Assembly (NCBI RefSeq): GCF_003054195.1
Contig: NZ_QBKP01000003.1
Span: 124,001-188,000, forward strand
DNA: 64,000 bases
Direction: 5' to 3'
Origin: Gemmobacter caeni
GTDB lineage: Bacteria > Pseudomonadota > Alphaproteobacteria > Rhodobacterales > Rhodobacteraceae
The notes beneath the pieces were generated by a model that was given only the letters and a program-made list of their open reading frames with translations, did not search any database and was not told the DNA's origin. Made by a program: the position numbers and the translations under genes. Shown here piece after piece: positions 1,273 to 37,610 of this stretch; positions within the stretch are counted from its first letter, which is position 1; each line of letters opens with the position of its first letter.

Positions 1273-2229
1273 ATGAAACTGACCCCGAAAACCGCAACCC
1301 TTCTGGTGCTGGCCGCGCTTGTGGCGATCACTCCGTTCTTCTTCCCTTCGGGCTACTACTACCGCGTGGGCGCCCTGATCTTCGTCAATGGGCTTGCCGT
1401 GACCGGCATCGTGATCCTGACCGGCTATGCCGGACAGGTGAGCCTTGGCCACGCCGGGTTCGCCGGGATCGGCGGCTATGCCTGCGCATTGGCGCCGGTG
1501 CATCTGGGCCTGCATCCCGCGCTGGCCGTGGTGCTGGGCGCGGTGATGTCCGCCGCGCTGGCCTGGCTGGTCGGGCGCCCGATCCTGCGGCTGAAAGGCT
1601 ATTACCTGGGTGTTGCCTCGCTGGGTATGGGCATCCTGATTTCCATGGTGCTGAACAACGAACGCTGGCTGACGCGCGGCCCTGACGGGATCGACGTGCC
1701 CGACCTCGGCCTGCGCGGCGTGCTGAAGGACTGGGGCCTGAACCTGTCGAACGGCGAGTTCTGGTATTTCTTCAGCGGCATCGTGATGATCCTCGGCGCA
1801 TGGGCCGCGCTGAACCTGCATCAAAGCCCGACCGGCCGCGCCCTGCGTGCGCTGCACGGGTCAGAAATCGCCGCCCGGACCGTGGGCGTGGATGTCAGCC
1901 GCCTGAAGCTCCAGGCCTTCGTGATCTCGGCGGTCTATGCCTCCGTTTCCGGCTCGCTGCTGGCCCTACAAAACAAGTTCATCACCCCCGATGTCGCGGG
2001 CTTCATGCACTCGATCGAGATGGTGACCATGGCGGTTCTGGGCGGCGCGGGTTCGGTGCTGGGCGCGATCTTCGGCGCGGGCATCCTGACGCTGCTGCCG
2101 CAGGTTCTGACCGTCTTCGCCGAATACGAACAGATGGTGCTGGGGCTGGTGATGATGCTGGTGATGATCTTCCTGCGGGAGGGGCTTCTGCCTTCGATCC
2201 TGCGCAAGCTGCGGGGGACCGGGGAATGA
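1273..2229 (+). CDS. livM: Branched-chain amino acid-type ABC transporter permease (LivM family)
   Basis: The protein has 318 residues and many hydrophobic segments. The conserved block TGYAGQVSLGHAGFAGIGG near residue 50-70 is the LivM signature, and GGAGSVLGAIFGAG near residue 255-270 corresponds to the ATPase-coupling loop. It is the second membrane subunit of the importer. Its TGA overlaps the ATG of livG (ATGA at 2226-2229), which indicates translational coupling. The length is normal for the family and no defects are visible. Confidence 0.9.
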   Translation: MKLTPKTATLLVLAALVAITPFFFPSGYYYRVGALIFVNGLAVTGIVILTGYAGQVSLGHAGFAGIGGYACALAPVHLGLHPALAVVLGAVMSAALAWLVGRPILRLKGYYLGVASLGMGILISMVLNNERWLTRGPDGIDVPDLGLRGVLKDWGLNLSNGEFWYFFSGIVMILGAWAALNLHQSPTGRALRALHGSEIAARTVGVDVSRLKLQAFVISAVYASVSGSLLALQNKFITPDVAGFMHSIEMVTMAVLGGAGSVLGAIFGAGILTLLPQVLTVFAEYEQMVLGLVMMLVMIFLREGLLPSILRKLRGTGE

Positions 2230-3002
2230 GCCTTCTTGACATCAAGGGTCTTGGCATCACCTTCGGTGGCCTGCGCGCGGTGAACGAGGTCAGCTTTTCG
2301 GTCAATCCCGGTGAGATCGTCTCGGTCATCGGGCCGAACGGTGCGGGGAAGACCACGCTGTTCAACATGATTTCGGGCGTCTATCTGCCCGGCGCGGGAC
2401 AGGTGGTGCTGAACGGCGAGGATGTGACGGGCATGCGCCCCGATCTTCTGGCCCGGCGCGGCATGAGTCGGACCTTCCAGAACCTGCAAATCTTTCAAAG
2501 CATGACGGTGCTGGAAAATGCGATTTCCGGCTATCACCTGCAGGAACGCGGGCCGGTGCTGGCCGATCTTCTGGGCCTGCCTTCGTCGCGGCGGCGCTCT
2601 AAGGCAGCCGAGGAAGGCGCGCGGGCGCTGCTGGCGCGGGTGGGGCTCGAACGCGCTGCCGAACGCGAGGCGGGGAACCTGTCTTACGGCGCGCTGAAAC
2701 GGCTGGAGATTGCGCGCGCGCTGGCGCTGAACCCCAAGGTTCTGTTGCTGGACGAACCCGCCGCAGGCTGCAATGCCGTGGAAACCGAGGAGATCGACCA
2801 CCTGATCGCGGAGGTCGCCAAATCCGGCGTGGCGATCCTGCTGGTGGAGCATGACATGAAGATGGTCATGCGGATTTCCAGTCACATCGTGGTGCTGGAC
2901 CATGGCGAGAAGATCGCCGAGGGCGACCCGGCCACGGTCAGCCGCGACCCGGCGGTGATCGCGGCCTATCTGGGAACGGAGGCCGAGAATGCTGACGGTT
3001 GA
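2226..3002 (+). CDS. livG: Branched-chain amino acid-type ABC transporter ATP-binding protein (LivG family)
   Basis: The start is the ATG at 2226 that overlaps the livM stop; upstream in-frame sequence belongs to livM in another frame. The 258-residue product has Walker A GPNGAGKTT near residue 35-43, an ABC signature of the divergent LSYG type (LSYGALKRLEIARAL), Walker B KVLLLDEP and the switch histidine in LLVEHDM. LSYG in place of LSGG is common in LivG proteins. It pairs with LivF to energise import. The LivF start lies 14 bases inside its 3' end. Confidence 0.92.
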   Translation: MSLLDIKGLGITFGGLRAVNEVSFSVNPGEIVSVIGPNGAGKTTLFNMISGVYLPGAGQVVLNGEDVTGMRPDLLARRGMSRTFQNLQIFQSMTVLENAISGYHLQERGPVLADLLGLPSSRRRSKAAEEGARALLARVGLERAAEREAGNLSYGALKRLEIARALALNPKVLLLDEPAAGCNAVETEEIDHLIAEVAKSGVAILLVEHDMKMVMRISSHIVVLDHGEKIAEGDPATVSRDPAVIAAYLGTEAENADG

Positions 3003-3690
3003 GGGGCTGCGCTCGCGTTACGGGCGCATCGAGGTGCTGCATGGCATCGACCTGCATGTGGACAGCGGCGAGATCGTCACCGTGGTCGGCGCCAATGGCG
3101 CGGGCAAGACGACGCTTCTGCGCTGCCTGTCGGGCGTGCAGCCGGTCACGGGCGGCAGCATCACCTTTCGCGGTGAGGCGCTGACCCCGGTTCCGGCCTA
3201 CAAGCGGCTGCGGCGCGGTCTCGCGCAATCGCCCGAGGGGCGGCAGATCTTCACCAACCTGACGGTGGAGGAAAACCTGCGGCTTGGCGCCTTCCTGTTC
3301 TCGGATGACCGGGTGGAAAAGGACATGGAAGATGCCTTCCAGATGTTCCCGATCCTGAAGGAAAAGCGCAATCTGGCGGCGGGCGGCCTGTCGGGCGGCC
3401 AGCAGCAGATGCTTGCCATGGCGCGGGCGCTGATGGGGCGGCCGTCCTGCCTGCTGCTGGATGAACCCTCGATGGGTCTGGCGCCCATTGTCGTGCAGCA
3501 GATCTTTGACGTGGTGAAGGGTCTGAAGGCGCTGAACGTCACTGTCCTGCTGGTCGAACAGAATGCCTTCGGTGCCTTGAAGATTGCGGATCGTGGCTAT
3601 GTGATGGAAACAGGGCATATCACCATGAGCGGGACGGCGGCCGAGCTGATCGCCGATCCGCGCATCCGCGAAGCCTATCTGGGGATCTGA
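2989..3690 (+). CDS. livF: Branched-chain amino acid-type ABC transporter ATP-binding protein (LivF family)
   Basis: This 233-residue ATPase has Walker A GANGAGKTT, the canonical signature LSGGQQQMLAMARAL, Walker B CLLLDEPSMGLAP and LLVEQNAFGAL in the switch region, all standard for LivF. The start overlaps livG by 14 bases. The next gene, an acyl-CoA enzyme, begins one base after the stop. The transporter and that enzyme are therefore almost certainly co-transcribed, which suggests the imported compound is degraded through a CoA thioester. Confidence 0.92.
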   Translation: MLTVEGLRSRYGRIEVLHGIDLHVDSGEIVTVVGANGAGKTTLLRCLSGVQPVTGGSITFRGEALTPVPAYKRLRRGLAQSPEGRQIFTNLTVEENLRLGAFLFSDDRVEKDMEDAFQMFPILKEKRNLAAGGLSGGQQQMLAMARALMGRPSCLLLDEPSMGLAPIVVQQIFDVVKGLKALNVTVLLVEQNAFGALKIADRGYVMETGHITMSGTAAELIADPRIREAYLGI

Positions 3691-3691
3691 G

Positions 3692-5635
3692 ATGAGCGTT
3701 GTAAGCATCGAACGCGAGGGCGAAATCGCCGTCGTCACCGTGGACAATCCGCCGGTCAACGCGCTGGGTCAGGCGCTGCGGCAGGGGCTGTGGGATGCGG
3801 TGGCCACGCTGGACGCCGACCCGGATGTGCGGGCGGTGGTGCTGATCTGCGCAGGCCGCACCTTCATCGCCGGGGCCGATGTGCGCGAATTTGGCAAGCC
3901 GCCGGTGGAGCCGCATCTGCCCGATCTGGTGAACCGGATCGAGGGCGCGGTGAAGCCCTGGGTCGCCGCCATTCATGGCAGCGCGCTGGGCGGCGGGTTC
4001 GAGGTGGCGCTGGGCTGTCGCTTCCGCGTGGTACTGGACAGCGCCTCGGTCGGTCTGCCCGAAGTGGTGCTGGGGATCGTGCCGGGCGCCTCGGGCACGG
4101 TGCGCACGCCGCGTGTGGCCGGCGCTGCGGCGGCGGTGGATCTTGTGACCACCGGCAAGCCGGTGAAGGCCGCGAAGGCGCAGGCCATGGGTCTGGTCGA
4201 TGCGGTGCTGTCCGGCGATCTGCGCGAAGGCGCCATCGCCTTCGCACGAGCCGCGCTGGAGGCCCCGCTGCCGCTGCCCGCCTCGGAACGTCCTGTCACC
4301 GATCCGGGGGCGGCGTTCTGGGCCGAACAGCAGGCGGCGGTTGCCAGGCGGGCGAAGGGCGAGGCCGCCCCGCTGCGCGCGCTGGCTTGTGTGCAGAAGG
4401 CGGTTCAGGCGCCCTTTGCCGAAGCGCTGGCCTTTGAACGCGCGACCTTCCTTGACCTGCGCGGCTCTGATCAGGCCGCCGCGCTGCGCCATGTGTTCTT
4501 CGCCGAACGTGCCGCCCCGCGCCCGGCGCATCTGGGCGAGGCTAAACCCTTGCCCCTGCGCAATGCCGGGGTGATCGGCGGTGGGACCATGGGGGCGGGT
4601 ATCGCCGCAGCACTGCGCGATGCGGGACTTCCGGTCGTGCTGATCGAGCGCGATGCCGAGGCGCTGGCGCGCGGGCTTGCCAACCTGCAAACCATCTTCG
4701 ACGGCGGGGTCAAACGCGGCAAGCTGACGCCCGAACAGGCGGCGGCGCGTATGGCAGGCGTCACCGGCGCCACCGATTACGCTGCGCTTGCCGACACCGA
4801 TCTGGTGATCGAGGCGGTATTCGAGGAGATCGGCGTGAAACGCGCGGTCTTTGCCGACCTTGCCCGCCATTGCCGGTCCGATGCGGTGCTGGCGACCAAT
4901 ACCTCCTACCTCGATCCGCGCGCGATTGCCGAAGGGCTTGCGAACCCCGGTCGCTTCATCGGGCTGCATTTCTTCAGCCCGGCCAATGTGATGAAACTGC
5001 TGGAAATCGTGCCGACACCCGAGACCGCGCCGGAAACGCTGGCCACCGGCTTTGCGCTGGCGCGGGCGCTGGGCAAGATTCCGGTGCAGGCGGGCATCTG
5101 CGAGGGCTTTATCGGCAACCGCATCCTCAAACGCTATCGCGCTGCCGCCGAGGCGCTGGTGCGGCAAGGCGTGGCGATTGCCGAGGTTGACGCCGCCATG
5201 CGCGGCTTCGGTTTTGCCATGGGGCCTTTCGAGGCGCAGGATCTGGGCGGGCTCGACATTGCCTTCCTGCAACGCGAGGGCGCGCGGGCGGCAGGGCAGG
5301 ACGTGCCGGAAACGCTGGGCGACCTGCTGGTGCGCGCGGGTCGCAAGGGGCAGAAAACCGGCGGTGGCTGGTATGATTATGCGCCGGGCGACCGCAAGCC
5401 GCAGGCATCGGCCAGGGTGGCCGAGGTGCTGGCGGCTGCCATCACCGCCGGACCGGCGCTGGATCGTGCGGCCATTGCCGAACGGCTTGTCGGTGAGATG
5501 GCCGCCGAGGGGGAGGCGATCCTTGCGGAGGGTATCGCGCTCAGCCCGTCCGACATCGACCTTGTGGAAATCCATGGCTACGGCTTCCCGCGCTGGCGTG
5601 GCGGGCCGATGCATTACACCGCCCGCAAGGGCTGA
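3692..5635 (+). CDS. Fused enoyl-CoA hydratase / 3-hydroxyacyl-CoA dehydrogenase
   Basis: The 647-residue protein has an N-terminal crotonase domain (about 1-185) with both expected acidic residues, in GGGFEVAL and GLPEVVLGIVPG. A Rossmann domain begins near residue 288 with GVIGGGTMGAGIA. The dehydrogenase catalytic histidine is in GLHFFSPANVMKL, and a duplicated 3HCDH C-terminal region ends with the WRGGP block. It hydrates a trans-2-enoyl-CoA and oxidises the 3-hydroxyacyl-CoA with NAD+. It is shorter than FadB/FadJ (about 715). Being one base from livF, it belongs to the transporter operon. It could also take crotonyl-CoA from the nearby glutaryl-CoA dehydrogenase to acetoacetyl-CoA, which is an inference from position. 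Confidence 0.88.
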   Translation: MSVVSIEREGEIAVVTVDNPPVNALGQALRQGLWDAVATLDADPDVRAVVLICAGRTFIAGADVREFGKPPVEPHLPDLVNRIEGAVKPWVAAIHGSALGGGFEVALGCRFRVVLDSASVGLPEVVLGIVPGASGTVRTPRVAGAAAAVDLVTTGKPVKAAKAQAMGLVDAVLSGDLREGAIAFARAALEAPLPLPASERPVTDPGAAFWAEQQAAVARRAKGEAAPLRALACVQKAVQAPFAEALAFERATFLDLRGSDQAAALRHVFFAERAAPRPAHLGEAKPLPLRNAGVIGGGTMGAGIAAALRDAGLPVVLIERDAEALARGLANLQTIFDGGVKRGKLTPEQAAARMAGVTGATDYAALADTDLVIEAVFEEIGVKRAVFADLARHCRSDAVLATNTSYLDPRAIAEGLANPGRFIGLHFFSPANVMKLLEIVPTPETAPETLATGFALARALGKIPVQAGICEGFIGNRILKRYRAAAEALVRQGVAIAEVDAAMRGFGFAMGPFEAQDLGGLDIAFLQREGARAAGQDVPETLGDLLVRAGRKGQKTGGGWYDYAPGDRKPQASARVAEVLAAAITAGPALDRAAIAERLVGEMAAEGEAILAEGIALSPSDIDLVEIHGYGFPRWRGGPMHYTARKG

Positions 5636-5642: not shown

Positions 5643-8513
5643 TCAGGGGCGGGGCGCTGCATCCCCATGCAGCGCCTCGTGCAGCCGCAGCCCGAGGTCG
5701 CGGCGCCGGTAGGGCTTCGACAGGAGCCTTGCGCCGGAAACGAGACTGCCGCGCCGCAGGATCGCATTTTCCGAATAGCCCGAGGTGAACAGGATCTTCA
5801 GCCCCGGAAAATCGGCCAGCACACGTTCGGCCAGCACCAGCCCGTTCATCTCACCCGGCATCACCACATCGGTGAACAGCAGGCTCACATCCCCGGCAGC
5901 GCGGATCGCCTCCAGCGCAGCGGCGCCATCCGCGACAGCGGTGACGCGATAGCCAAGGCTTTCGACCAGCCGCGCCACATGCGGGCGAAGCGCGGGATCA
6001 TCCTCGGCCACGACCACATGCTGACCGGCCCCCATGGGAATGGCCTCTGCCGGGTCTGCGAGCGAGCCGACATGGGCCTCTGATCCCTGGCGACTGCGCG
6101 GCAGATACAGCCGGACGGTGGTGCCCTGTCCCGCCTCACTGTAAAGCGTGACATGGCCGCCCGACTGACTGACGAAACCATGCACCATCGACAGACCAAG
6201 CCCGGAGCCGCGCCCGACGGGCTTGGTGGTAAAGAAGGGGTCGAAAGCCCGCGCCGCGACGTCCGGCAGCATGCCTGTGCCGGAATCGGTGATCGACAGC
6301 CGCAGAAACTCGCCCGTCCGCGCGTCGGGATTGGCGGCGGCATAGCTGCTGTCCACCACGCAGTTTTCGGCCTCGATGACGAGATCGCCACCGTCGGGCA
6401 TCGCATCGCCGGCATTGACAGCAAGGTTCAGAAGCGCAGTCTGCAATTGCGTCGGATCTGCCTCGACCGGCCAGAGGTCATCGGGTGTGACGACCGAAAG
6501 CCGGATATAGGCGGGCAGGGTACGGGTCAGCATGCAGCGCAATTCGGTCAGAACGCTGGCGCTGGCCAGTGCGCGCGGGGCAAGCGGCTGACGGCGGGCA
6601 AAGGCCAGCAGGCTGCGCACCAGTTCTGCGCCGCGTTCGGCGGCTTGCACGACCTGCGCTGCCGGGGCCTGCGTTTCGGCATCCTCAGCCGTATCCGCCA
6701 GCAGTTCGGCATTGGCCAGAATGACCGACAGCAGGTTGTTGAAATCATGCGCCACCCCGCCGGTCAGCTTGCCCAGGGCCTCCAGCCGCTGCGCCTGTTG
6801 CAGCTTGGCGGCAAGCTCCACCTCATCGGTGATATCCTCGATTGCCCCCACGATACGAAAGGCCTCGCCCTCGTCATCGCGCAGGGCCAGCGCACGGTCG
6901 CGGACATGGGCATAGCTGCAGTCCGAGCGGCGCAGCCTGTATTCGGCGCGCCAGTCCTCGCGCCGTCCGGCGATGAAAGTGCGGAACTGGCGCAGAACCT
7001 GCGGCGCATCCTCGGGATGCAGCGACTGTGTCCAGATACCGGGCGACGGCTGCTCGCCTTCCCATTCGGCGCCGAAGATCGCCACCGCGCCTTCGCTGTA
7101 AAGTACGGTGCCCGCGCGCAGGTCAATTTCATACACGACATCGGAGGCCAGCCGCAGCACCGCGCGCAGGCGTTCCCCCTCTTCGCGCAGGCGCGTGACA
7201 TCGACGATGGAGCCTATCAGCCGGTGCAACCGGCCATCCGGGCGGCGCTGGGCCAGTGCGCGGTCGATAACATGCGCCACCGATCCGTCACCCCGGATCA
7301 CCCGGTAGGCATATTCCCAGCGGTCATCCCCGCGCGTGATCGCCGTATCGCGCAGATGCAGGATACGGGGCAGGTCGTCAGGGTGGATCGCCGCGCGCCA
7401 GCTGCCCGGACCGGATGCCGGGGCAAACGGGTCCAGCCCGAAGGTGCGGCTGTAGCTTTCGCTGCGCCAGGTGCGGCCGGTCTCCGGCTCCCAGGAATAG
7501 ATCACATCCTGCGAAGCCTCGGCCGCGAGGCGAAAGCGTTCCTGCCCCTCGCGCAGCGCAGTCATGTCGACCATCGAGCCGACGCTGCGCAGTGCGCGAC
7601 CGTCGGCATCGCGCAGGAACCGTGCGCGGTCGACGACCCAGACATAGCTGCCGTCGGCGCGGGAAAAGCGGTATTCCTCGGTCCAGTGGTCATCGGCTCC
7701 TGTTCGGGCCGCTTCAAAGCGTTCGCGCAGGCGTGGCGCATCCTCGGGGTGCACGCGCGACAGCCACCAGTCTGTCTTTTCGACGCCGGGCACATCGGCA
7801 TGGCCGTATTGCCGGAACAGCGCGTCACTCCACCAGATCTTGTCTTCGACAAGATCGTGGATGAACAACACATCGGTTGAGGCCGAGGTGGCAAGCTGAA
7901 ACCGGGCCTCGGCCTCGTGGACGGCGCTGACGTCGATCATCGTGCCGATCATGCGGCGGGCCTGCCCGGCCTCGTCGCGCAACAGGAAACCCCGGTCGAT
8001 CACATGGGCTGCCGTGCCATCGGCGCGCAGAAAACGATAGGCCTCCTCCCATGTCTCCAGATCGGGGGGGACGGGCGACAGGACGGCGGCGGCGATGCGC
8101 GGGCGATCCTCGGGGTGGATGCGGCCCAGCCAGTTCTGCACCGTGCCGGGGAATTGGGTGGTATCATAGCCCATCGCCTTCGTGGCATGGGCAAACCAGT
8201 CCAGACGGCCGCTTGTCATGTCCCAGTCGAACATCACATGCCCGGCGGCACGCAAGGCAATGCCCGCGCGGTTCTCATGCCCGCATTGCGCGACAAGGAT
8301 TGAGCGGCGCCTGTCGTTCAGCTGTAAGGGCAAGGTCCAGCAGGTGATGGCAAGCCGCCTGTTCACCGCCCCGATCACCTCTGCCGCTGTGGCGGGGGTG
8401 AAGCCGGGGAACATGTCTTCGGCGGCGGCATTGGGGATGATGGGCCCATCTGTCGTTTCTGGCAACAGCCAGGCCGGAGCTTCGAGTGCCGCCAGATATG
8501 CCAATGCGTCCAT
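5643..8513 (-). CDS. Hybrid sensor histidine kinase with four tandem PAS domains and a receiver
   Basis: I chose the ATG at 8513 (956 residues); a TTG at 8531 would add six residues. After about 90 N-terminal residues come four PAS_3/PAC units of about 125 residues each, every one carrying an HPED or HPDD motif and a PAC strand like RADGTAAHVIDR. Next is a HisKA domain with phospho-acceptor histidine in GGVAHDFNN, a HATPase domain (DSGTGMLPD, then GRGSGLGLSMVHGF) and a C-terminal receiver with the aspartate in LLFTDVVMPG. No transmembrane segment or signal peptide is evident, so it is probably cytosolic. It has no adjacent response regulator. It is convergent with the acyl-CoA gene. Signal and output are unknown. 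Confidence 0.88.
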   Translation of the reverse strand: MDALAYLAALEAPAWLLPETTDGPIIPNAAAEDMFPGFTPATAAEVIGAVNRRLAITCWTLPLQLNDRRRSILVAQCGHENRAGIALRAAGHVMFDWDMTSGRLDWFAHATKAMGYDTTQFPGTVQNWLGRIHPEDRPRIAAAVLSPVPPDLETWEEAYRFLRADGTAAHVIDRGFLLRDEAGQARRMIGTMIDVSAVHEAEARFQLATSASTDVLFIHDLVEDKIWWSDALFRQYGHADVPGVEKTDWWLSRVHPEDAPRLRERFEAARTGADDHWTEEYRFSRADGSYVWVVDRARFLRDADGRALRSVGSMVDMTALREGQERFRLAAEASQDVIYSWEPETGRTWRSESYSRTFGLDPFAPASGPGSWRAAIHPDDLPRILHLRDTAITRGDDRWEYAYRVIRGDGSVAHVIDRALAQRRPDGRLHRLIGSIVDVTRLREEGERLRAVLRLASDVVYEIDLRAGTVLYSEGAVAIFGAEWEGEQPSPGIWTQSLHPEDAPQVLRQFRTFIAGRREDWRAEYRLRRSDCSYAHVRDRALALRDDEGEAFRIVGAIEDITDEVELAAKLQQAQRLEALGKLTGGVAHDFNNLLSVILANAELLADTAEDAETQAPAAQVVQAAERGAELVRSLLAFARRQPLAPRALASASVLTELRCMLTRTLPAYIRLSVVTPDDLWPVEADPTQLQTALLNLAVNAGDAMPDGGDLVIEAENCVVDSSYAAANPDARTGEFLRLSITDSGTGMLPDVAARAFDPFFTTKPVGRGSGLGLSMVHGFVSQSGGHVTLYSEAGQGTTVRLYLPRSRQGSEAHVGSLADPAEAIPMGAGQHVVVAEDDPALRPHVARLVESLGYRVTAVADGAAALEAIRAAGDVSLLFTDVVMPGEMNGLVLAERVLADFPGLKILFTSGYSENAILRRGSLVSGARLLSKPYRRRDLGLRLHEALHGDAAPRP

Positions 8514-8603
8514 GAAGATCGCCCCATTCAACCAGGGCGAGTATCTGCCGATTGTCGTTGAAAGGAAATCCGGTCCGGCAAGGATCTGGCATCCGTGGCG
8601 CGT

Positions 8604-9521
8604 TCACCACGCCAGAAGCTCTTCTGCCGCGCGGCCCGAAACCTCCTGGATCAGCCAGTCGCGGAACGCGACCAGAGGGGGGTAGTTTTCGCCGATGCCG
8701 GGCCAGACGAGGTAGTAGCTGCCGACGCTGGGCACCGGCCCGCCCCAGGCCTCGACCAGACGGCCATCGGCCAGTTCCGCCTTGGCCAGAAATTCGGGCA
8801 GCAGGGCCACGCCCATGCCGTAGATGGCCGATTGAATCATCGGTGCGAACTGATCGAACAGCATCCCCAGCGGGATCGAGGCGGATACGCCGTGGAACGA
8901 GAACCAGCTGGCCCAAGCATTCGGCCGGGTTTCCAGCTGCAAAAGCGGCAGGCCGATCAGGTCGCGCGGGCTGTCGATGGGGTGGCTGGCCAGAAAGCCC
9001 GGCGCGGCGCAGGCGATCATCCTTTCGTCGAAGAGTTTCGCAAAGCCAGCCTCGGGCCAGGTGCGATCCCCGAAATGGATGGCGGCGTCAAAGCCTTCTT
9101 CCGCGAAATCGAAGGGCCGCAGCCGGGTGCCAAGGTTGATCGTCACCCCCGGATGTGCCGCCAGAAAGCGCGGCAGCCGCGGCGCCAGCCAGCGCGTACC
9201 GAAGGTCGGCAGGATCGACAGCGCCAGCGTGCCGCCCCCGGTGGTGGATCGCACCCGCATCGAGGCGCGGCTGATCAGGTCCATCGCCTTTGCCACGTCG
9301 CGCGCATAGGCCAGCGCATTTTCGGTGGGCACCAGCCGCCGCCCCTCACGCCGGAACAGTTGTACGCCAAGCTGTGCTTCAAGGTTCTGCACAAGGCGGC
9401 TTACCGCGCCCTGCGTCAGGGCAAGGTCATGGGCGGCGGCAAGGGTCGATCCGGTGCGGATGACGGATTCGAAGGCCATCAGCAGCGAGATCGAGGGCAA
9501 AAGGCGGCGAGGAGTGGCCAT
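8604..9521 (-). CDS. LysR-family transcriptional regulator (GcvA/GcdR-like)
   Basis: The start was placed at the ATG at 9521 (305 residues), because the ten residues of the longer frame precede the conserved helix-turn-helix. The DNA-binding domain spans about residues 5-65 (LTQGAVSRLVQNLEAQLGVQLFRR in shortened form: AVSRLVQNLE, VQLFRR). The rest is a LysR substrate domain of the GcvA type. It is divergent from glutaryl-CoA dehydrogenase with 100 bp between start codons. That arrangement matches GcdR-type activators of glutarate/lysine catabolism, so control of the downstream operon is the likeliest role. The inducer is not visible from sequence. Confidence 0.85.
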   Translation of the reverse strand: MATPRRLLPSISLLMAFESVIRTGSTLAAAHDLALTQGAVSRLVQNLEAQLGVQLFRREGRRLVPTENALAYARDVAKAMDLISRASMRVRSTTGGGTLALSILPTFGTRWLAPRLPRFLAAHPGVTINLGTRLRPFDFAEEGFDAAIHFGDRTWPEAGFAKLFDERMIACAAPGFLASHPIDSPRDLIGLPLLQLETRPNAWASWFSFHGVSASIPLGMLFDQFAPMIQSAIYGMGVALLPEFLAKAELADGRLVEAWGGPVPSVGSYYLVWPGIGENYPPLVAFRDWLIQEVSGRAAEELLAW

Positions 9522-9522
9522 G

Positions 9523-9562
9523 TATGCTTTCCATGCATAGGATAACGTCAATCTATCGTTAT
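9523..9562. promoter_or_regulatory. Two inverted repeats in the LysR/gcdH divergent promoter
   Basis: TATGC-N7-GCATA lies at 9523-9539 and contains a T-N11-A arrangement (T9525, A9537), the usual LysR-type motif. A second dyad, ATAACG-N9-CGTTAT, lies at 9542-9562. Both sit directly in front of the regulator start and 60-100 bp before gcdH, the expected place for autoregulation plus activation. Protein binding is inferred. Confidence 0.5.
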
Positions 9563-9621: not shown

Positions 9622-10830
9622 ATGGCCCTGAAACCGAAAGACGCCCCCGACCTCGGCCGCTTCGACTGGGAAGATGCTTTCCGTCTGGAAGACCAGCTGA
9701 CCGAGGACGAGCGCATGCTGCGCGATGCAGCCCGCGCCTATGCGCAGGACAAGCTGCAATCCCGTGTGATCAAGGCCTTCGCCGATGAAGAGACCGATCC
9801 GGCCATCTTCCGCGAGATGGGCGAAATGGGCCTTCTGGGCGTGACCGTGCCGGAGGAATACGGCGGGCTTGGCGCCTCCTATGTCTCGTACGGGCTGGTG
9901 GCCCGCGAGGTGGAGCGCGTCGATTCGGGCTACCGTTCGATGATGTCGGTGCAGTCGTCGCTGGTGATGTATCCGATCTACGCTTACGGCTCGGAAGAGC
10001 AGCGCATGAAATACCTGCCGAAGCTCGCCTCGGGCGAATATATCGGCTGCTTCGGCCTGACCGAGCCCGATGCCGGTTCCGACCCGGCCGGGATGAAGAC
10101 CGTCGCCCGCAAGACCGCCAATGGCTATGTCCTGAACGGCGCGAAGATGTGGATTTCCAACGCACCCATAGCCGATGTCTTTGTCGTCTGGGCGAAATCC
10201 GAGGCGCATGGCGGCAAGATCCGGGGTTTCGTGCTTGAGAAAGGCATGAAAGGTCTCTCGGCACCGAAGATTGGTGGAAAGCTCTCCCTCCGCGCTTCGG
10301 TGACCGGCGAGATCGTGATGAAGGATGTCGAGGTCGGCGAAGATGCGCTGCTGCCGGGCGTCGAGGGGCTGAAAGGGCCGTTCGGCTGTCTGAACCGCGC
10401 CCGCTATGGCATCTCGTGGGGCGTGCTGGGCGCGGCCGAGTTCTGCCTGTCGGCGGCCCGCCAATATGGCCTGGACCGCAAGCAGTTCAACAAGCCCATT
10501 GCCGGAACGCAGCTTTACCAGCTGAAGCTTGCGAACATGCTGACCGAGATCAGCCTTGGCCTGCAAGCCTCGCTGCGCGTCGGCCGTCTGCTGGACGAGG
10601 CCAATGCTGCGCCCGAGATGATTTCCATCGTCAAGCGCAACAACTGCGGCAAGGCACTGGATATCGCCCGCTGGGCCCGCGACATGCACGGCGGCAACGG
10701 CATCCAGCAGGAATTCCAGGTCATCCGCCATATGGTGAACCTGGAAACGGTGAACACCTACGAAGGCACCCATGACGTGCATGCCCTGATCCTGGGCCGC
10801 GCTGTCACCGGCCTGCAAGCATTCTTCTGA
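9622..10830 (+). CDS. gcdH: Glutaryl-CoA dehydrogenase
   Basis: This 402-residue acyl-CoA dehydrogenase oxidatively decarboxylates glutaryl-CoA to crotonyl-CoA, passing electrons to ETF. The C-terminal motif [16 protein letters not shown] is the glutaryl-CoA dehydrogenase form of the catalytic loop, with the base at about Glu381. The FAD-binding blocks [14 protein letters not shown] and [16 protein letters not shown] are present, the length is typical, and the C terminus after LGRAVTG is short as in this family. It is divergent from the LysR gene and starts the lysine-type catabolic cluster. A strong hairpin lies just after the stop, so the next gene may be expressed partly separately. Confidence 0.93.
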
Positions 10831-10897: not shown

Positions 10898-13081
10898 ATG
10901 GATCGCGCCGATATCGTTCACGACAATTTCCTGCGCCGCATCGCGTCGCGGGACTTTCCGCATGGCCGCGCTCCTTCGGGGGCGCTTTCGGCGTTTCAGG
11001 CGGTGGAGATTTACCGCGCCGCCTGTCTCAGCCGTGCGCTGGACCGACAAAGCCGGGTGATGCAGCGGGCCGGGCAGGGGTTCTATACCATCGGCTCGTC
11101 CGGGCATGAGGGGCTGGCGGCGGTGGCTGCCGCGCTGCGCCCGACCGACATGGCCTTCCTGCATTACCGCGACGCGGCCTTCCAGATCGGCCGAAGCGCG
11201 CAGGTGCCGGGGCAAAGCATTGCCTGGGACATGCTGCTGTCCTTCGCGGCCTCGTCGGAAGACCCGATTTCCGGCGGGCGGCACAAGGTGCTGGGGTCGA
11301 AGGCGCTGAGCATTCCGCCGCAGACCTCCACCATCGCCTCGCATCTGCCGAAGGCCGTGGGCGCGGCTTATGCGGTCGGCGCCGCGCGGCGCCACCGGCC
11401 CGAACATGCCGAACTGCCCGACGATGCCATCGTCTATTGCAGCTTTGGTGATGCCTCGGCCAACCATTCCACCGCGCAGGGTGCCTTCAACACCGCGCAA
11501 TGGACCTCGTATCAGTCGATCCCGCTGCCGCTGCTGTTCTGCTGCGAGGACAATGGCATCGGTATTTCCACCAAGACGCCGAAAGGCTGGATCGGGGCGA
11601 GCTTCCAGAACCGTCCGGGGCTGAAGTATTTCGCCTGTGACGGGCTGGACATCTTTGACACTTTCGCCACCGCGCAGGAGGCGGCGCATTATGTGCGGAC
11701 CCGGCGCAAGCCCGCCTTCCTGCATATCCGCACCATCCGGCTTTACGGCCACGCCGGTGCCGACATGCCCACGACCTACATGCCGCGCGAGGAGGTGGAG
11801 GCCGAAGAGGCGCAGGACCCGCTGCTGCATATGGTACGCGGGCTGGACCAGATGGGCGCGATGACGGCCGAGGCTGCCTTGCAGGTCTATACCGACACCA
11901 ATGCCCGTGTGGCCCGCATCGCCGCCGAGGCCGTGACGCGCCCGCGTCTGCATGATGCGGCGGGTGTCATGGCTTCGCTGATCCCGCCGAAGCGCAATTG
12001 CGCGCCGACCAACGGGCCCTCGTCCGAGGCGCGTGCGGCGGCTTTCGGCAGCGACATGAAGCAGATGGCCGAGCCGCAGATCATGTCGCGCCTCATCAAC
12101 TGGGCGCTGACCGACCTGATGCTGGCCCACCGCGAAATCGTGATGATGGGCGAGGATGTCGGTCGCAAGGGTGGCGTCTATGGCGTGACGCAGAAGTTGC
12201 AGGCCCGCTTCGGGCCGGACCGCATGATCGACACGCTGCTGGATGAACAAAGCATTCTGGGCCTTGCCATCGGCATGGCACAGAACGGCTTCATCCCGAT
12301 GCCGGAAATCCAGTTCCTCGCCTATCTGCATAATGCCGAGGATCAGTTGCGCGGCGAGGCGGCGACGCTGCCCTTCTTCTCCAACGGGCAATATACCAAT
12401 CCGATGGTGCTGCGCATCGCGGGGCTGGGCTACCAGAAGGGCTTCGGCGGGCATTTCCACAACGACAACTCCTTTGCCGTGCTGCGCGACATTCCGGGGC
12501 TGATCCTTGCCTGTCCGTCGAACGGGGCCGATGCTGCGCGGATGCTGCGCGAATGCGTGCGGCTGGCGCGCGAGGAGCAGCGGCTGGTGGTGTTTCTGGA
12601 GCCCATCGCGCTTTACCCGATGCGCGACCTGCATGGCGACAAGGATGGCGGCTGGATGTGCCACTATCCCGACCCGTCCGAGATCATCCCCTTCGGGCAG
12701 GTGGGCACACATGGCGCGGGCGAGGATCTGGCCATCGTCACCTTCGGGAACGGGGTTTACCTTTCCCGTCAGGCCGAACCCGTGCTGGCGGCGGCGGGTA
12801 TCAAAACCCGGATCGTGGATACGCGCTGGCTGTCACCGCTGCCGAAAGAGGCGCTGACGGAGGCCGTGAAGGGCGCGAAACGCATCCTGATCGTCGATGA
12901 AACCCGCCATACCGGCGGCTTTGCCGAAGCCCTGATGGCGCATTTCCACGAGGCTTGCCCCGGCACGCCGCTGTCGCGTCTGACCGCCGAGGACAGTTTC
13001 ATCGCCACCGGCCCGGCCTATGCGGCCACCATGCCCTCCACCGCGCAGATCGTCGCGGCCGCGCAGGAGATGATGAAATGA
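10898..13081 (+). CDS. Fused alpha/beta E1 component of a 2-oxoacid dehydrogenase (candidate 2-oxoadipate dehydrogenase E1)
   Basis: The 727-residue protein joins both E1 subunits of a branched-chain-type 2-oxoacid dehydrogenase. The alpha half (about 1-385) has SSGHEGL, and the thiamine diphosphate motif begins with FGDAS near residue 183 and ends with CEDNG near 216-220. The beta half starts around residue 390 (IVMMGEDVG, then LLDEQSILGLAIGMA). It should decarboxylate a 2-oxoacid. No lipoyl-bearing E2 or E3 gene is nearby. The setting between gcdH and aminoadipate-semialdehyde genes suggests 2-oxoadipate as substrate, by inference only. Its TGA overlaps the ATG of the FabD-like gene, so the two are translationally coupled. 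An alternative is a BCKDH-type enzyme with wider substrates. Confidence 0.82.
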   Translation: MDRADIVHDNFLRRIASRDFPHGRAPSGALSAFQAVEIYRAACLSRALDRQSRVMQRAGQGFYTIGSSGHEGLAAVAAALRPTDMAFLHYRDAAFQIGRSAQVPGQSIAWDMLLSFAASSEDPISGGRHKVLGSKALSIPPQTSTIASHLPKAVGAAYAVGAARRHRPEHAELPDDAIVYCSFGDASANHSTAQGAFNTAQWTSYQSIPLPLLFCCEDNGIGISTKTPKGWIGASFQNRPGLKYFACDGLDIFDTFATAQEAAHYVRTRRKPAFLHIRTIRLYGHAGADMPTTYMPREEVEAEEAQDPLLHMVRGLDQMGAMTAEAALQVYTDTNARVARIAAEAVTRPRLHDAAGVMASLIPPKRNCAPTNGPSSEARAAAFGSDMKQMAEPQIMSRLINWALTDLMLAHREIVMMGEDVGRKGGVYGVTQKLQARFGPDRMIDTLLDEQSILGLAIGMAQNGFIPMPEIQFLAYLHNAEDQLRGEAATLPFFSNGQYTNPMVLRIAGLGYQKGFGGHFHNDNSFAVLRDIPGLILACPSNGADAARMLRECVRLAREEQRLVVFLEPIALYPMRDLHGDKDGGWMCHYPDPSEIIPFGQVGTHGAGEDLAIVTFGNGVYLSRQAEPVLAAAGIKTRIVDTRWLSPLPKEALTEAVKGAKRILIVDETRHTGGFAEALMAHFHEACPGTPLSRLTAEDSFIATGPAYAATMPSTAQIVAAAQEMMK

Positions 13082-14109
13082 AAACCGCGGTCGTGATCTG
13101 CCCCGGACGGGGCACCTATACCAAGACTGAACTGGGCGTGCTGGGCCGGCATTTCCACGACAAGGCGCTGCTGGCGAATTTCGACGCCCGCCGCGCCGCG
13201 CTGGGACAGGAAACCCTGTCGGCGCTGGATGGCGCGGCCAGCTATTCGGTGGCGAAACACACGCGGGGCGACAATGGCTCTGCGCTGATCTATGCCGCGA
13301 CGCTGGCCGATTTTCGCGCGATTGAAGGCGTGGAGGTGGTCGCCGTCACCGGCAATTCGATGGGCTGGTATTCGGCGCTGGCCTGCGGCGGCGCGCTGAC
13401 GCCGGAAGGCGGGTTCGAGGTGGTCAACACCATGGGCACGCTGATGCAGGAACGGCTGATCGGCGGCCAGATCATCTATCCCTTCATGGGCGAGGACTGG
13501 CTGCCCGACCCGACCCGCAAGGCCGAGATCATGGCCGTCGTCGCAGATATCGGCGCCCGGCCCGATCATGTGCTGGGCCTGTCGATCGATCTTGGCGGCA
13601 TGTTGGTTCTGGCTGGCAACGAGGCGGGGCTGAAGGCGTTCGAAGCTGCCGTACCGCCGGTACAGGGCCGCTTTCCGATGCGGCTCGCCAATCACGCGGG
13701 CTTCCACACCGCCATGCAGGTCCCGGTGGCCGAGGCGGGGCGCGCCCGTCTGGCGCCGGGCCTGTTCGCACAACCGAAGATCCCGATGATCGACGGGCGC
13801 GGTCATATCTGGTGGCCCGGCGCCTGCGATCTGCATGCGCTTTGGGATTATACGCTGGGGCATCAGGTGGTGGAGCCTTACGACTTCACCCGCGCCATCG
13901 CCCACGCGGCGCGCGAATTCGCGCCCGACCTCTTCATCGTCACCGGCCCCGGCACCACATTGGGCGGGGCGGTGGCGCAATCGCTCATCCTCGCGGACTG
14001 GCGCGGGATGCGCAGCAAATCCGATTTCCAATCGCGGCAATCCGCCGATCCCCTTCTGGTTTCGATGGGGATGGAGGATCAACGCCGTCAGGTCACCAAG
14101 GGAGACTGA
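13078..14109 (+). CDS. FabD-like acyltransferase lacking the malonyl-binding arginine
   Basis: The ATG at 13078 overlaps the E1 stop (ATGA), giving 343 residues. The nucleophile elbow is TGNSMGWYSAL (Ser94), matching the FabD GHSLGEYSAL block, and His210 in FHTAM aligns with the catalytic histidine. The FabD block RGKFMQE reads MGTLMQE, so the arginine that holds the malonyl carboxylate is a methionine (119). The N-terminal GQGSQ motif is GRGTY. It therefore belongs to the malonyltransferase fold but is unlikely to use malonyl-CoA. Translational coupling to the E1 fusion suggests the two act together, perhaps on the acyl group that E1 produces. That is a hypothesis, not a known function. Confidence 0.75.
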   Translation: MKTAVVICPGRGTYTKTELGVLGRHFHDKALLANFDARRAALGQETLSALDGAASYSVAKHTRGDNGSALIYAATLADFRAIEGVEVVAVTGNSMGWYSALACGGALTPEGGFEVVNTMGTLMQERLIGGQIIYPFMGEDWLPDPTRKAEIMAVVADIGARPDHVLGLSIDLGGMLVLAGNEAGLKAFEAAVPPVQGRFPMRLANHAGFHTAMQVPVAEAGRARLAPGLFAQPKIPMIDGRGHIWWPGACDLHALWDYTLGHQVVEPYDFTRAIAHAAREFAPDLFIVTGPGTTLGGAVAQSLILADWRGMRSKSDFQSRQSADPLLVSMGMEDQRRQVTKGD

Positions 14110-14110: not shown

Positions 14111-15610
14111 ATGACCCATGCCGAAATCCTGAAGGCCAATGGCCTGAGCCAAGCCGAACTGACCGGCGGCACGCTGGCCGTGCGTTCGCCCATCGACGGC
14201 GAGGTGGTGGCTCATGTCCACGAGACCGACGCGGGTGACATGCCCGCGATCATTGCCAAATCGCAGGAAGCCTTCCGTGCCTGGCGCACCGTTCCGGCCC
14301 CGCGCCGCGGCGAACTCGTCCGCCTGCTGGGCGAAGAACTGCGCGCCAGCAAAGAGGCGCTGGGCGCGCTGGTGACGCTGGAGGCGGGCAAGATCACCTC
14401 CGAGGGTCTGGGCGAAGTGCAGGAGATGATCGACATCTGCGATTTCGCCGTCGGCCTGTCGCGGCAGATCTACGGTCTGACCATCGCGTCGGAACGTCCC
14501 TCGCACCGGATGATGGAAACCTGGCACCCGATGGGGCCGTGCGGCATCATCTCGGCCTTCAACTTCCCCGTGGCCGTGTGGTCCTGGAACGCGGCGCTGG
14601 CGCTGGTCTGCGGCGACCCGGTGATCTGGAAACCGTCCGAGAAAACCCCGCTGACCGCCATGGCCAGCATGAAGATCATGGAACGCGCGCTGGCCCGCTT
14701 TGGCGATGCACCCGAGGGGCTGGTGCAACTGGTGATCGGCGGTCCGGCCATCGGCGAGGCGCTGGTCGCGTCGAAAGACGTGCCGATCCTGTCAGCCACC
14801 GGCTCGACCCGGATGGGCGGCATCGTTGGCCCGAAGGTCGCCGCGCGCTGGGGCCGCCCGATTCTGGAGCTTGGCGGCAACAATGCGATGATCGTCGCGC
14901 CTTCAGCGGATCTGGATATGGCGGTGCGCGCCATCGCCTTTTCGGCGGTTGGCACGGCCGGTCAGCGCTGCACCACGCTGCGCCGCCTGATCGCACATAA
15001 CTCGGTCCGTGCCGAACTGGTTGAGCGTCTGACCAAGGCCTATGCCAGCCTGCCCATCGGCGACCCGCGCCGCGCGACCACGCTGATCGGCCCGCTGGTC
15101 GATCATGCCAGCCGCGACCGGATGCTGGCGCAGATCGAGAAGGCCCGCGCCGAGGGTGGCACCGTCCATGGCGGCCAGACCGTGACCGAGGACGTGCCGC
15201 AGGGCGGCGCCTACGTCACCCCCGCCTTGATCGAGATGCCGCAGCAGACCGACACGGTGCGCGAGGAAACCTTCGCCCCGATCCTCTATGTCATGGGCTA
15301 TGACACGCTGGACGAGGCGCTGGCGATCCAGAACGACGTGCCGCAGGGCCTGTCGTCCTGCATCTTCACGCTGAACATGCGCGAGGCGGAAACCTTCCTG
15401 TCGGCCGCCGGGTCGGATTGCGGCATCGCCAATGTCAATATCGGCCCTTCGGGCGCCGAAATCGGCGGTGCCTTTGGCGGCGAGAAGGAAACCGGCGGCG
15501 GGCGCGAAAGTGGCTCGGACGCCTGGAAGGGCTATATGCGGCGCCAGACCAATACCATCAACTACGGTGCCACCCTGCCGCTGGCGCAGGGCGTGAAGTT
15601 CGACTTCTGA
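14111..15610 (+). CDS. amaB: L-aminoadipate-6-semialdehyde dehydrogenase (ALDH7 family)
   Basis: The start is the ATG at 14111, one base after the upstream stop and preceded by GGGAGA; the longer frame upstream is the FabD-like gene in another phase. The 499 residues show the aldehyde dehydrogenase asparagine in FNFPVAVWSWN, the general base in ELGGNNAM (Glu253) and the nucleophile in AGQRCTTLRR (Cys287). The GQRCTT and ELGGNN forms are those of ALDH7/antiquitin. The enzyme oxidises aminoadipate semialdehyde (or its cyclic form, piperideine-6-carboxylate) to 2-aminoadipate using NAD(P)+. It sits next to saccharopine dehydrogenase, which would make its substrate. Confidence 0.9.
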   Translation: MTHAEILKANGLSQAELTGGTLAVRSPIDGEVVAHVHETDAGDMPAIIAKSQEAFRAWRTVPAPRRGELVRLLGEELRASKEALGALVTLEAGKITSEGLGEVQEMIDICDFAVGLSRQIYGLTIASERPSHRMMETWHPMGPCGIISAFNFPVAVWSWNAALALVCGDPVIWKPSEKTPLTAMASMKIMERALARFGDAPEGLVQLVIGGPAIGEALVASKDVPILSATGSTRMGGIVGPKVAARWGRPILELGGNNAMIVAPSADLDMAVRAIAFSAVGTAGQRCTTLRRLIAHNSVRAELVERLTKAYASLPIGDPRRATTLIGPLVDHASRDRMLAQIEKARAEGGTVHGGQTVTEDVPQGGAYVTPALIEMPQQTDTVREETFAPILYVMGYDTLDEALAIQNDVPQGLSSCIFTLNMREAETFLSAAGSDCGIANVNIGPSGAEIGGAFGGEKETGGGRESGSDAWKGYMRRQTNTINYGATLPLAQGVKFDF

Positions 15611-15647: not shown

Positions 15648-15766
15648 GCATTCTGCCGAAGAAACGCTTCACTTCGGGCGCTATGCCGGGCGCATTCGGC
15701 ACTCCCCTCGGTCATTCTGCCAGATATGCGCCTCCGCAAAGGCGGAGCAGGAATGAGGGAAATACA

Positions 15767-16846
15767 ATGTCTTTCAACAAGATCGCGGTACTGGGGCTTG
15801 GCAAGGTCGGCCATCTGGCGGCCGAGCTGCTGGTGGAAAGCGGCTTCACCGTCACCGGCATCGACGCCCGCGACACGAAGGCGGGCTTTGCGACGAAAAC
15901 CGTCGACCTGTCGGATACCGCTGCGCTGAAAGCCGCACTGGAAGGGCAGGAGGCGGTGCTGTCCTGCCTGCCTTACCACCTGAACATTGGCGTCTCGACC
16001 GTCGCACACGGCCTGGGCCTGCATTACTTCGACCTGACCGAAGACGTGCCGACGACGAAACACATCCGCGAACTCGCCAAGACCTCGAAGGGTCTGATGG
16101 CGCCGCAATGTGGCCTTGCGCCGGGCTTCGTCGGGATCGTGGCCGCCGATCTGGCGAACCAGTTCGACAGCGTGCGCTCCATCAAGCTGCGCGTCGGCGC
16201 GCTGCCGCAGAACCCGACGGGCCTGCTGGGCTATGCCTTCAACTGGTCGCCCGAAGGCGTGGTAAATGAATACCTCAATGACTGCGAGGTGATCGAGGAA
16301 GGCGTGCTGAAAACCGTCTCGGCGATGGAATGGACGGAAGCCATCTATATCGACGGGATGCAGCTTGAAGCCTTCACCACCTCGGGCGGCCTTGGCACCA
16401 TGTGCGAGACCTATCTCGGCAAGATCGAGAACCTTGATTACAAAACCATGCGCTATCCCGGCCATGTGCAGTTGATGAACTTTTTCTTCCATGAACTGCT
16501 GATGCGCGAGAACCGGGCCGAGGCGGGCCGCATCCTGACCAATGCGAAACCGCCGGTGGACGAGGATGTGGTCTATGTTCACGTCGCGGCCGAGGGTCGG
16601 GTGGATGGCCAGATGCGGCGCAAGGAATTCGTGCGCAGCTACTACCCGGTCGAGATCGGCGGCAAGTCCCGCACCGCGATCGCCTGGACCACCTCGGCCT
16701 CGGTGGTGGCGGTGATCGAGATGGTGCGCGGCGGCGCCCTGCCGCAACAAGGCTTCCTGAAGCAGGAGGACATCCCGCTGAAGCCCTATCTGGACACCCG
16801 GACCGGCCATTACTACCAGATCGGCCACCGCGCCCGTCACGCCTGA
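15767..16846 (+). CDS. Saccharopine dehydrogenase family protein (L-glutamate-forming type)
   Basis: The start is the ATG at 15767 (359 residues), just before the Rossmann motif VLGLGKVGHLAAELL; residues before it in the longer frame are not conserved-looking. The fold is the saccharopine dehydrogenase NAD(P)-binding domain (to about 125) followed by the C-terminal domain (GLAPGFVGIVAADLA and TSGGLGTMCETY). It should cleave saccharopine to glutamate and aminoadipate semialdehyde, feeding the upstream dehydrogenase. In some marine Rhodobacterales this activity is fused to lysine-ketoglutarate reductase. Here only the dehydrogenase half is present and no reductase is visible nearby. It could also act on a related opine-like substrate. 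Confidence 0.8.
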   Translation: MSFNKIAVLGLGKVGHLAAELLVESGFTVTGIDARDTKAGFATKTVDLSDTAALKAALEGQEAVLSCLPYHLNIGVSTVAHGLGLHYFDLTEDVPTTKHIRELAKTSKGLMAPQCGLAPGFVGIVAADLANQFDSVRSIKLRVGALPQNPTGLLGYAFNWSPEGVVNEYLNDCEVIEEGVLKTVSAMEWTEAIYIDGMQLEAFTTSGGLGTMCETYLGKIENLDYKTMRYPGHVQLMNFFFHELLMRENRAEAGRILTNAKPPVDEDVVYVHVAAEGRVDGQMRRKEFVRSYYPVEIGGKSRTAIAWTTSASVVAVIEMVRGGALPQQGFLKQEDIPLKPYLDTRTGHYYQIGHRARHA

Positions 16847-36993: not shown

Positions 36994-37094
36994 TGGCGAT
37001 GCGGGCGCTCCCCCCTGGCCGGACCGGCGGTGCGGCGCTTGCCCCGCGCCGCCGGGTCGCGCATCACAGGGCAAAGCCCCTGCAAAGTGATCCG

Positions 37095-37610
37095 ATGCGC
37101 CTCAATCCCGAACTTGCCGCCTATATCTTCGTCACGCTGCTGGTCTTGTGGTCCGCCGCGCATCGCTATGCGCCGGTCGCTGCGCGGTCCAGCGAGGCGC
37201 AGAAGCCGGTGACGCGCGAGGCGCCGGGCGGTCTCGTCGGCTGCAAGACAGGCTATGTCTATGACGGCGATACGGTCGAGCTGATCTGCGGCAACAGGCG
37301 CGACCGGGCCCGGCTTGCGGGCTATGATGCGCCGGAAACGCACGAACCCGGCTGTGCCGCCGAGGCTACGCTGGGCGCCCGAGCAACCGACCGGCTGCGC
37401 GGGCTGCTGCGCGCCGCGACCCCTGCGATGACCGATCTTGGCACCGATAAATACGGCCGCCGCCTGATCCGCCTGCGGCTTCCGGGGGGGGAGGATATCG
37501 CTGATCGCATGATCGCCGAGGGGCTGGCTGTTGCTTATGACGATGCGCAGCGCATCGACTGGTGCGCCCGGATTGCCGCAAGCGGAGGTGCCAAATGGCT
37601 GAGACCCTGA
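37095..37610 (+). CDS. Membrane-anchored staphylococcal-nuclease-like protein
   Basis: From ATG 37095 the product has 171 residues; an alternative ATG at 36993 overlapping the mccB stop (TGATG) would add 34 residues. An N-terminal hydrophobic segment (AAYIFVTLLVLWS) is followed by the SNase domain: VYDGDTVEL, then RLAGYDAPETHEPGC containing the catalytic arginine and glutamate, and KYGRRLIRL with the second arginine. It should be an extracytoplasmic thermonuclease-type phosphodiesterase. It has no evident part in leucine catabolism although it lies inside that operon. It overlaps the next gene by 16 bases. Confidence 0.8.
   Translation: MRLNPELAAYIFVTLLVLWSAAHRYAPVAARSSEAQKPVTREAPGGLVGCKTGYVYDGDTVELICGNRRDRARLAGYDAPETHEPGCAAEATLGARATDRLRGLLRAATPAMTDLGTDKYGRRLIRLRLPGGEDIADRMIAEGLAVAYDDAQRIDWCARIAASGGAKWLRP

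Follow-up and report, generated by a model that had tools for sequence, protein, structure and literature searches.

A FabD-fold acyltransferase coupled to a fused 2-oxoacid dehydrogenase E1 in Gemmobacter caeni and its possible role in glutaryl transfer

What can an acyltransferase of the FabD fold contribute to a 2-oxoacid dehydrogenase E1 that has no E2 gene in its vicinity? The question is raised by a stretch of 64,000 nucleotides (nt) from Gemmobacter caeni (contig NZ_QBKP01000003.1, positions 124,001 to 188,000; hereafter the window), in which a gene for an E1 with fused alpha and beta parts is followed by one for a FabD-fold protein, here called AT. A sequence-only reading of the window had drawn attention to the overlap of the two genes and had proposed that AT takes part of the role of E2. 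That observation is confirmed and its interpretation is partly supported. Residues of E1 covary with the presence of AT, so that AT probably works on E1, and the answer we tentatively put forward is that AT may be an accessory serine transacylase docked on E1, which would help to move a glutaryl group from lipoyl to coenzyme A (CoA). The two genes are:

10898..13081, forward strand: fused alpha/beta E1, predicted 2-oxoadipate dehydrogenase E1 (from its domains and conserved catalytic residues)
13078..14109, forward strand: AT, FabD-fold acyltransferase without the malonyl-binding Arg, overlapping E1 by 4 nt

Coupling and conservation of the pair

AT begins at the ATG at 13078, within the stop of E1 (ATGA), and ends at 14109, which gives a protein of 343 amino acids and bears out the overlap described by the sequence-only reading. 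A longer open reading frame with a TTG start at 12955 is not needed. The pair is conserved and translationally coupled. AT served as the query to fetch 80 loci, the best 80 of at least 582 stretches confirmed for the family in one scan, which lean to close kin. E1 lies at most 200 nt 5' of AT in 78 of them, while one of the other two has a contig start there and one a scaffold gap; the overlap is exactly 4 nt in 73 of the 78. A natural fusion of E1 and AT in one locus (L080) turned out to be a scaffold gap. Distances for E1 and for AT are correlated (r 0.88 over 79 loci, with none of 999 permutations as high), and in 32 loci the correlation is 0.95 for E1 and AT, 0.83 for E1 and the glutaryl-CoA dehydrogenase gene gcdH, and 0.82 for AT and gcdH.

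Of 246 genomes drawn evenly from the family of the window and searched at E 1e-60 for E1 and at E 1e-20 for AT, 77 have E1 and 49 have AT, and in all 49 the two genes are no more than 200 nt apart. None of the 246 genomes was found to have AT but no E1. By this distribution AT depends on E1 and E1 does not depend on AT; the expectation that the two are conserved together holds for AT but fails for E1, which is common on its own. The pair is rare in the class (AT in 4 and E1 in 5 of the 387 genomes of an even draw), so that the statistics rest on one family. It is adjacent outside the family too, in four genomes (G012, G731, G779 and G787). On plasmid pPN3F2_1 of Shewanella aestuarii (NZ_CP050314), an acyl-CoA dehydrogenase gene, E1 and AT lie between a nitrate reductase operon and a transposase, and such a cassette on a gammaproteobacterial plasmid makes horizontal transfer of the unit likely.

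AT compared with FabD

The predicted structure of AT (predicted local distance difference test, pLDDT, 94.5) was compared with known structures by Foldseek, which gave template modelling (TM) scores of 0.65 to 0.77 by query length among the 50 matches listed; FabD entries lead, and the matches are mostly FabD-type enzymes or acyltransferase domains. With FabD of Escherichia coli (1mla), AT shares the fold (TM about 0.7) and the Ser, His and Gln, Ser92 of 1mla being aligned with Ser94 and His201 with His210. It differs at Arg117, the malonyl-binding residue of FabD, which is Met119 in AT (RGKFMQE reads MGTLMQE), at Gln11, which is Arg11 (GQGSQ reads GRGTY), and in the GHSLGE motif, which reads GNSMGW. 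Conservation was counted over 114 distinct AT sequences, reaching down to about 51% identity to the AT of the window:

13108..13110, forward strand: codon of AT Arg11 (Gln11 in FabD), conserved in 114 of 114
13357..13359, forward strand: codon of AT Ser94, predicted nucleophile, aligned with FabD Ser92, 114 of 114
13432..13434, forward strand: codon of AT Met119, aligned with FabD Arg117; 113 of 114 sequences have Met and one has Thr, none has Arg
13705..13707, forward strand: codon of AT His210, catalytic His, 114 of 114
13864..13866, forward strand: codon of AT Gln263, in the stretch of what is presumably Gln250 in FabD, 114 of 114

Asn93, Trp97, Phe209 and Gly120 are likewise invariant, and Arg63 is nearly so (111 of 114). 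The loss of the malonyl-binding arginine, which the sequence-only reading had proposed next to an intact Ser94 and His210, is upheld for position 117 of FabD. Two arginines remain elsewhere, however, and with Arg11 invariant and Arg63 nearly invariant the loss of Arg117 argues against a malonyl group but not against a longer dicarboxylic acyl group.

Profile searches set AT apart from its named relatives, as it scores 35.1 bits with the FabD model TIGR00128 (cut-off 260.9) and 37.7 bits with the MdcH model TIGR03131 (cut-off 297.9). MdcH, the epsilon subunit of malonate decarboxylase, is an acyltransferase of the same fold that partners another enzyme complex; besides falling below the MdcH cut-off, AT differs from it in that the operon holds no malonate decarboxylase gene. 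In a draw of 199 genomes of the phylum, AT members reach at least 346.9 bits with the profile made from AT while other matches reach at most 54 bits, a gap wide enough to treat AT as a separate family. The genome has a regular FabD of its own (323.9 bits, with GQGAQ, GHSLGE, RIRGQAMQE and PFHC), so that AT is a paralogue. The AT of Gemmobacter lutimaris is 97% identical to that of the window. Three plasmid records name proteins of the AT family ACP S-malonyltransferase, a name that is probably wrong for AT.

E1, its covarying residues and its operon

On trees of E1 the presence of AT changes 16 to 18 times, with at least 9 to 10 of the changes forced by well-supported branches. AT has thus been gained or lost many times beside a stable E1, and this repetition allows E1 residues to be tested for covariation with it. 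The E1s of the 49 family genomes with AT were compared with those of the 28 without it at 306 variable positions, using 10 independent contrasts on supported branches and 200 pairings. Trp110 and Arg340 are the top two of the 306 positions, following AT in means of 8.0 and 8.6 of the 10 contrasts and going against it in none, with a background mean of 0.74 (standard deviation 1.81); Arg337, Arg269, position 341 and Val36 rank next. The median p of the sign test, 0.008 for Trp110 and 0.004 for Arg340, is uncorrected for the 306 positions, and the rank among positions serves as the control. Both residues lead again (5.5 and 5.3 of 6) when only the beta half is used for the tree, the five tested positions retain their signal on a mixture-model tree, and a plain measure of divergence has 107, 341, 340, 110, 337 and 36 as its top six. 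The covariation of Trp110 and Arg340 with gain or loss of AT is new here. The codons concerned are:

11003..11005, forward strand: E1 Val36, covarying with AT presence
11225..11227, forward strand: E1 Trp110; Trp in 47 of the 48 AT-bearing rows with a letter and in 8 of 28 rows without AT
11906..11920, forward strand: E1 Arg337 to Ile341, of which Arg337, Arg340 and Ile341 covary with AT presence

Where AT is absent, position 110 is mostly Arg (17 of 28). When Thr, Gly and gaps are set aside, position 36 is hydrophobic in 47 of 47 and position 341 in 48 of 49 scored rows with AT; of 26 scored rows without AT at each position, 11 are polar or charged at 36 and 10 at 341, a shift that is as expected if an interface had been lost. 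Of 32 further E1s with AT, picked by us among the fetched loci, 31 retain Trp110 and 31 retain Arg340. The catalytic His285, Glu450 and His521 are alike with and without AT, as are His149 and Lys152, and most of 58 presumed active-site, cofactor and neighbouring positions are nearly or fully alike in the two groups, position 188 varying in both. The five covarying positions are all part of the alpha half, where they fall within the predicted helices 32-57, 108-117 and 324-345, and a helix-face test over 11 helices gave p 0.002 for helix 32-57. A docking patch for AT is therefore predicted on the alpha half around Trp110, Arg337 to Ile341 and Val36; because all positions were scanned, the E1 model is poor and alternative contacts are possible, this surface is a prediction and not a proof.

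E1 itself is a protein of 727 amino acids which belongs to the alpha2beta2 type of 2-oxoacid dehydrogenase E1 by its domain set, with Pfam E1_dh (106.7 bits), Transket_pyr (77.8) and Transketolase_C (66.2) all above cut-off; the NCBIfam models for E1 of pyruvate dehydrogenase (PDH) all fall below theirs. With the E1 of PDH and of branched-chain 2-oxoacid dehydrogenase (BCKDH; 1dtw, 1um9) it shares the domain order, the thiamine diphosphate (ThDP) E1 fold and the catalytic His and Glu residues, but its alpha and beta parts are fused, no E2 gene is adjacent, and His149 and Lys152 take the place of two Gln in the BCKDH stretch SSPLATQIPQAVG. His285, Glu450 and His521 are present in all 77 E1s of the family; we take the first to be the alpha-His (His291 of BCKDH) and the others to be the beta-Glu and beta-His, with the roles that they have in BCKDH. 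An E1 of the DHTKD1 type, a single chain like that of 2-oxoglutarate dehydrogenase (OGDH), was rejected, as the domains are of the alpha/beta type with Transketolase_C and no OGDH-specific domain. The solved matches are PDH- or BCKDH-type alpha or beta chains, split transketolase and DXS, and none is of the OGDH type.

The earlier statement that no E2 gene lies near E1 holds for all 64 kb of the window, from which PF00198 is absent. Three PF00198 places exist in the genome, all on other contigs and each adjoining an E1 gene; two of these E1s match that of the window at 30-33%, and the third was read by eye as the OGDH type. At least one E2-type gene is carried by each of the 77 family genomes with E1. 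Exactly two are found in 27 of 49 genomes with AT and 15 of 28 without, the mean is 2.6 in both groups, and neither extra E2 nor extra GcvH differs clearly between them. Most likely, E1 would use the E2 and E3 of a housekeeping complex in the manner of the human 2-oxoadipate dehydrogenase. The human E1a (DHTKD1) has no known cognate E2 and recruits E2o and E3 (PMC8146983). The two systems are alike in the predicted reaction and in being lysine-breakdown E1s without a known E2 of their own, but human E1a is an OGDH-type single chain whereas the E1 here is a fused alpha2beta2-type enzyme, similar to those of BCKDH and PDH, with a FabD-fold partner.

The pair is embedded in the following genes:

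8604..9551, reverse strand: LysR-type regulator (GcvA-like), divergent from the operon, with Pfam LysR_substrate and HTH_1; NF008352 below cut-off
9622..10830, forward strand: glutaryl-CoA dehydrogenase gcdH, from acyl-CoA dehydrogenase domains and matches to solved structures
14111..15610, forward strand: L-piperideine-6-carboxylate (P6C) dehydrogenase, NF050084 at 811.6 bits (cut-off 730)
15683..16846, forward strand: saccharopine-dehydrogenase-fold protein, predicted lysine 6-dehydrogenase, with Pfam Sacchrp_dh_NADP/C

GcdH matches the solved glutaryl-CoA dehydrogenases 1sir (559 bits; presumably the human enzyme) and 3gnc (595 bits). Among solved structures it matches 4w9u best (694 bits), whose name says no more than acyl-CoA dehydrogenase, and none of the NCBIfam models is above cut-off for GcdH. 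The best solved match of the saccharopine-dehydrogenase-fold protein is 3abi (62 bits), which we take to be a lysine dehydrogenase. We read the run from gcdH through E1, AT and P6C dehydrogenase to lysine dehydrogenase as the lysine-to-crotonyl-CoA operon of an aquatic bacterium, in which no classical complex is present for the step from 2-oxoadipate to glutaryl-CoA; the fused E1 fits there. The 2-oxoadipate and glutaryl chemistry proposed earlier is thus supported by the operon, and the assignment of amaB by NF050084. No aminotransferase is among the named genes of this operon; in the plasmid locus of Ruegeria sp. AD91A the same run starts with a pyridoxal phosphate aminotransferase, followed by gcdH, E1 and AT, and this enzyme would supply 2-oxoadipate, which gcdH, P6C dehydrogenase and the aminotransferase together suggest as the E1 substrate. 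In the 80 fetched loci gcdH is directly 5' of E1 in 34 (another six contigs break off inside E1 or a short way ahead of it) and P6C dehydrogenase is directly 3' of AT in 45.

Upstream of the operon, positions 1800-5635 hold an ABC ATPase of the branched-chain amino-acid type and a fused enoyl-CoA hydratase/3-hydroxyacyl-CoA dehydrogenase, and the window may cover the route from lysine uptake to acetoacetyl-CoA. Between this beta-oxidation gene and the lysine operon, a hybrid histidine kinase with four PAS_3 stretches and a receiver domain is encoded on the reverse strand (5643-8531). Further away, 35389-40565 encodes carboxyl-transferase and biotin-carboxylase subunits, probably of an acyl-CoA (propionyl-CoA) carboxylase; bioB is not over cut-off in this genome.

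In loci without AT, gcdH is still directly 5' of E1 in 13 of 28, and one of them (L142) reads gcdH, E1, P6C dehydrogenase with nothing in between. No replacement gene directly 3' of E1 is common to more than three of the 28. Three weak matches considered as AT remnants were rejected, the best placed (L130) being a normal E1 C-terminus. An ABC-transporter and histidinol-dehydrogenase block stands directly 3' of E1 in the AT-less genome G131 (L093), and Ruegeria AD91A has two further genes after AT and then a block of sugar-ABC-transporter genes and hisD. Across L093, L137, L143 and L172 the sugar-ABC-transporter block is seen directly 3' of E1 in three AT-less loci and beyond AT in Ruegeria AD91A; this may be one site in two states, AT present and AT absent. 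The highly divergent E1 of L148 (G597, end branch 1.13), which lacks AT, also still follows gcdH.

Possible roles of AT

For the substrate of AT, its docking and the direction of transfer we infer the following course. Lysine 6-dehydrogenase and P6C dehydrogenase would lead to 2-aminoadipate and a transaminase to 2-oxoadipate, which the fused E1 would decarboxylate while glutarylating a borrowed lipoyl domain. The lender would be a housekeeping complex, most likely 2-oxoglutarate dehydrogenase with its E2 and the common E3. AT, made in step with E1 and docked on its alpha half, would accept the glutaryl group on Ser94 from the lipoyl thioester and hand it to CoA in a ping-pong manner, thereby assisting the catalytic core of the borrowed E2 or taking over part of its work, before GcdH would convert glutaryl-CoA to crotonyl-CoA. 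For a serine transacylase docked on an E1 that forms glutaryl groups, these groups would be the most plausible substrate. The chemistry permits passage from a lipoyl thioester through a serine ester to a CoA thioester. In the 2-oxoglutarate complex of E. coli the rate is limited by acyl transfer to CoA in E2o (PMC5986005), so that a helper at this step would be useful and could pay at high lysine flux. A bolder version, which we regard as doubtful, would make AT a bacterial glutaryl-transferase ('E2a') on the FabD fold that delivers the acyl group to CoA in place of the E2 core and borrows only a lipoyl domain and E3.

Several points weigh against an accessory transacylase. At E 1e-20, 28 of the 77 family genomes with E1 have no AT, and since E1 is kept there without AT and without a common replacement, the step made by AT is dispensable and AT is not obligatory. 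With E2-type genes in similar numbers in both groups, the stronger part of the sequence-only reading, that AT is required instead of E2, is not supported; the covariation predicts docking of AT on E1. That signal has exceptions of its own, as 11 of the 28 AT-less E1s retain Trp110, Arg340 or both and seven rows with AT are without one of them. The predicted model of E1 (pLDDT 67.7) is too poor for distances among the five positions, helix 324-345 gave no significant result in the helix-face test (p 0.19), and a changed contact with E2 or within the oligomer could give the same signal. AT has no Pfam match at E 0.01 and hence neither a 2-oxoacid_dh catalytic nor a lipoyl domain. P6C dehydrogenase is present in 32 of 49 genomes with AT and in 5 of 28 without (raw Fisher p 1e-4), but after correction for kinship its link to AT is unclear (5.2 to 1.6 pairs, median p 0.29). 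As far as neighbourhood goes, no lysine genes adjoin the pair in Maricaulis (L060, after aconitase B) or in Erythrobacteraceae (L045, L066, L071 and L072, near a TonB receptor or an FMO-like gene). No activity of any AT or E1 member was found in the literature searched.

Other roles can be weighed in order of falling probability. AT could be a hydrolase or proofreader docked on E1 which clears wrong or stalled acyl-lipoyl or acyl-CoA and releases the acid; the intact Ser-His-Gln set and a dispensable yet E1-linked AT would suit such quality control, but the release of glutarate would be wasteful next to a dedicated gcdH and enzymes of the FabD fold are mainly transferases, so that we consider this unlikely. 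It is quite unlikely that E1 works fully with housekeeping E2 and E3 and that AT, its enzymatic past now irrelevant, has a structural or regulatory part beside it. The dispensability of AT and the covarying E1 positions, which point to binding, would agree with such a scaffold, but the catalytic Ser, His and Gln, invariant in the 114 sequences, would be needless in it.

Transfer of the glutaryl group to acyl carrier protein (ACP), tying lysine breakdown through glutaryl-ACP to lipid or biotin synthesis, appears improbable. The FabD fold and the ACP-type family names would favour it, and the alpha-proteobacterial BioZ uses glutaryl-CoA (PMC7645780), but according to the same source BioZ takes glutaryl-CoA directly. 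Moreover, bioB reaches its cut-off in no more than 14 of 49 genomes with AT and 5 of 28 without, and not in the genome of the window; it does not track AT, and a link to biotin was rejected. No ACP gene is listed by the pair in two annotated plasmid loci, the gene tables of which are incomplete. That AT replaces E2 altogether and receives the acyl group directly from the cofactor of E1, with no lipoyl domain involved, is highly improbable in spite of the missing E2 gene in the window, as E1s without AT are unchanged in their key active-site residues and 13 of these 28 still stand beside gcdH, every one of the 77 genomes has an E2-type gene, and a ThDP-bound acyl group needs an oxidant, which lipoyl supplies.

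In Ruegeria pomeroyi, lysdh and aasadh (SPO0234 and SPO0235) have a function-based annotation (PMC4334477), and the available part of that paper names neither the 2-oxoadipate step nor the pair of E1 and AT. Likewise, the enzyme acting on 2-oxoadipate is not named in the available part of a lysine labelling study of Phaeobacter inhibens (PMC5653290). Among titles and the beginnings of abstracts, a coverage which did not extend to a 2013 ISME J paper on lysine catabolism and an earlier Phaeobacter amino-acid study, no description was found of the E1-AT pair or of a bacterial pair for the conversion of 2-oxoadipate to glutaryl-CoA. The AT family, named as a malonyltransferase in the three plasmid records, lacks the specificity residue of FabD. 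The named residues of E1 make docking directly testable, and if AT does dock on E1 and move an acyl group, the E1-E2-E3 plan of the 2-oxoacid dehydrogenases would gain a fourth, unrelated part.

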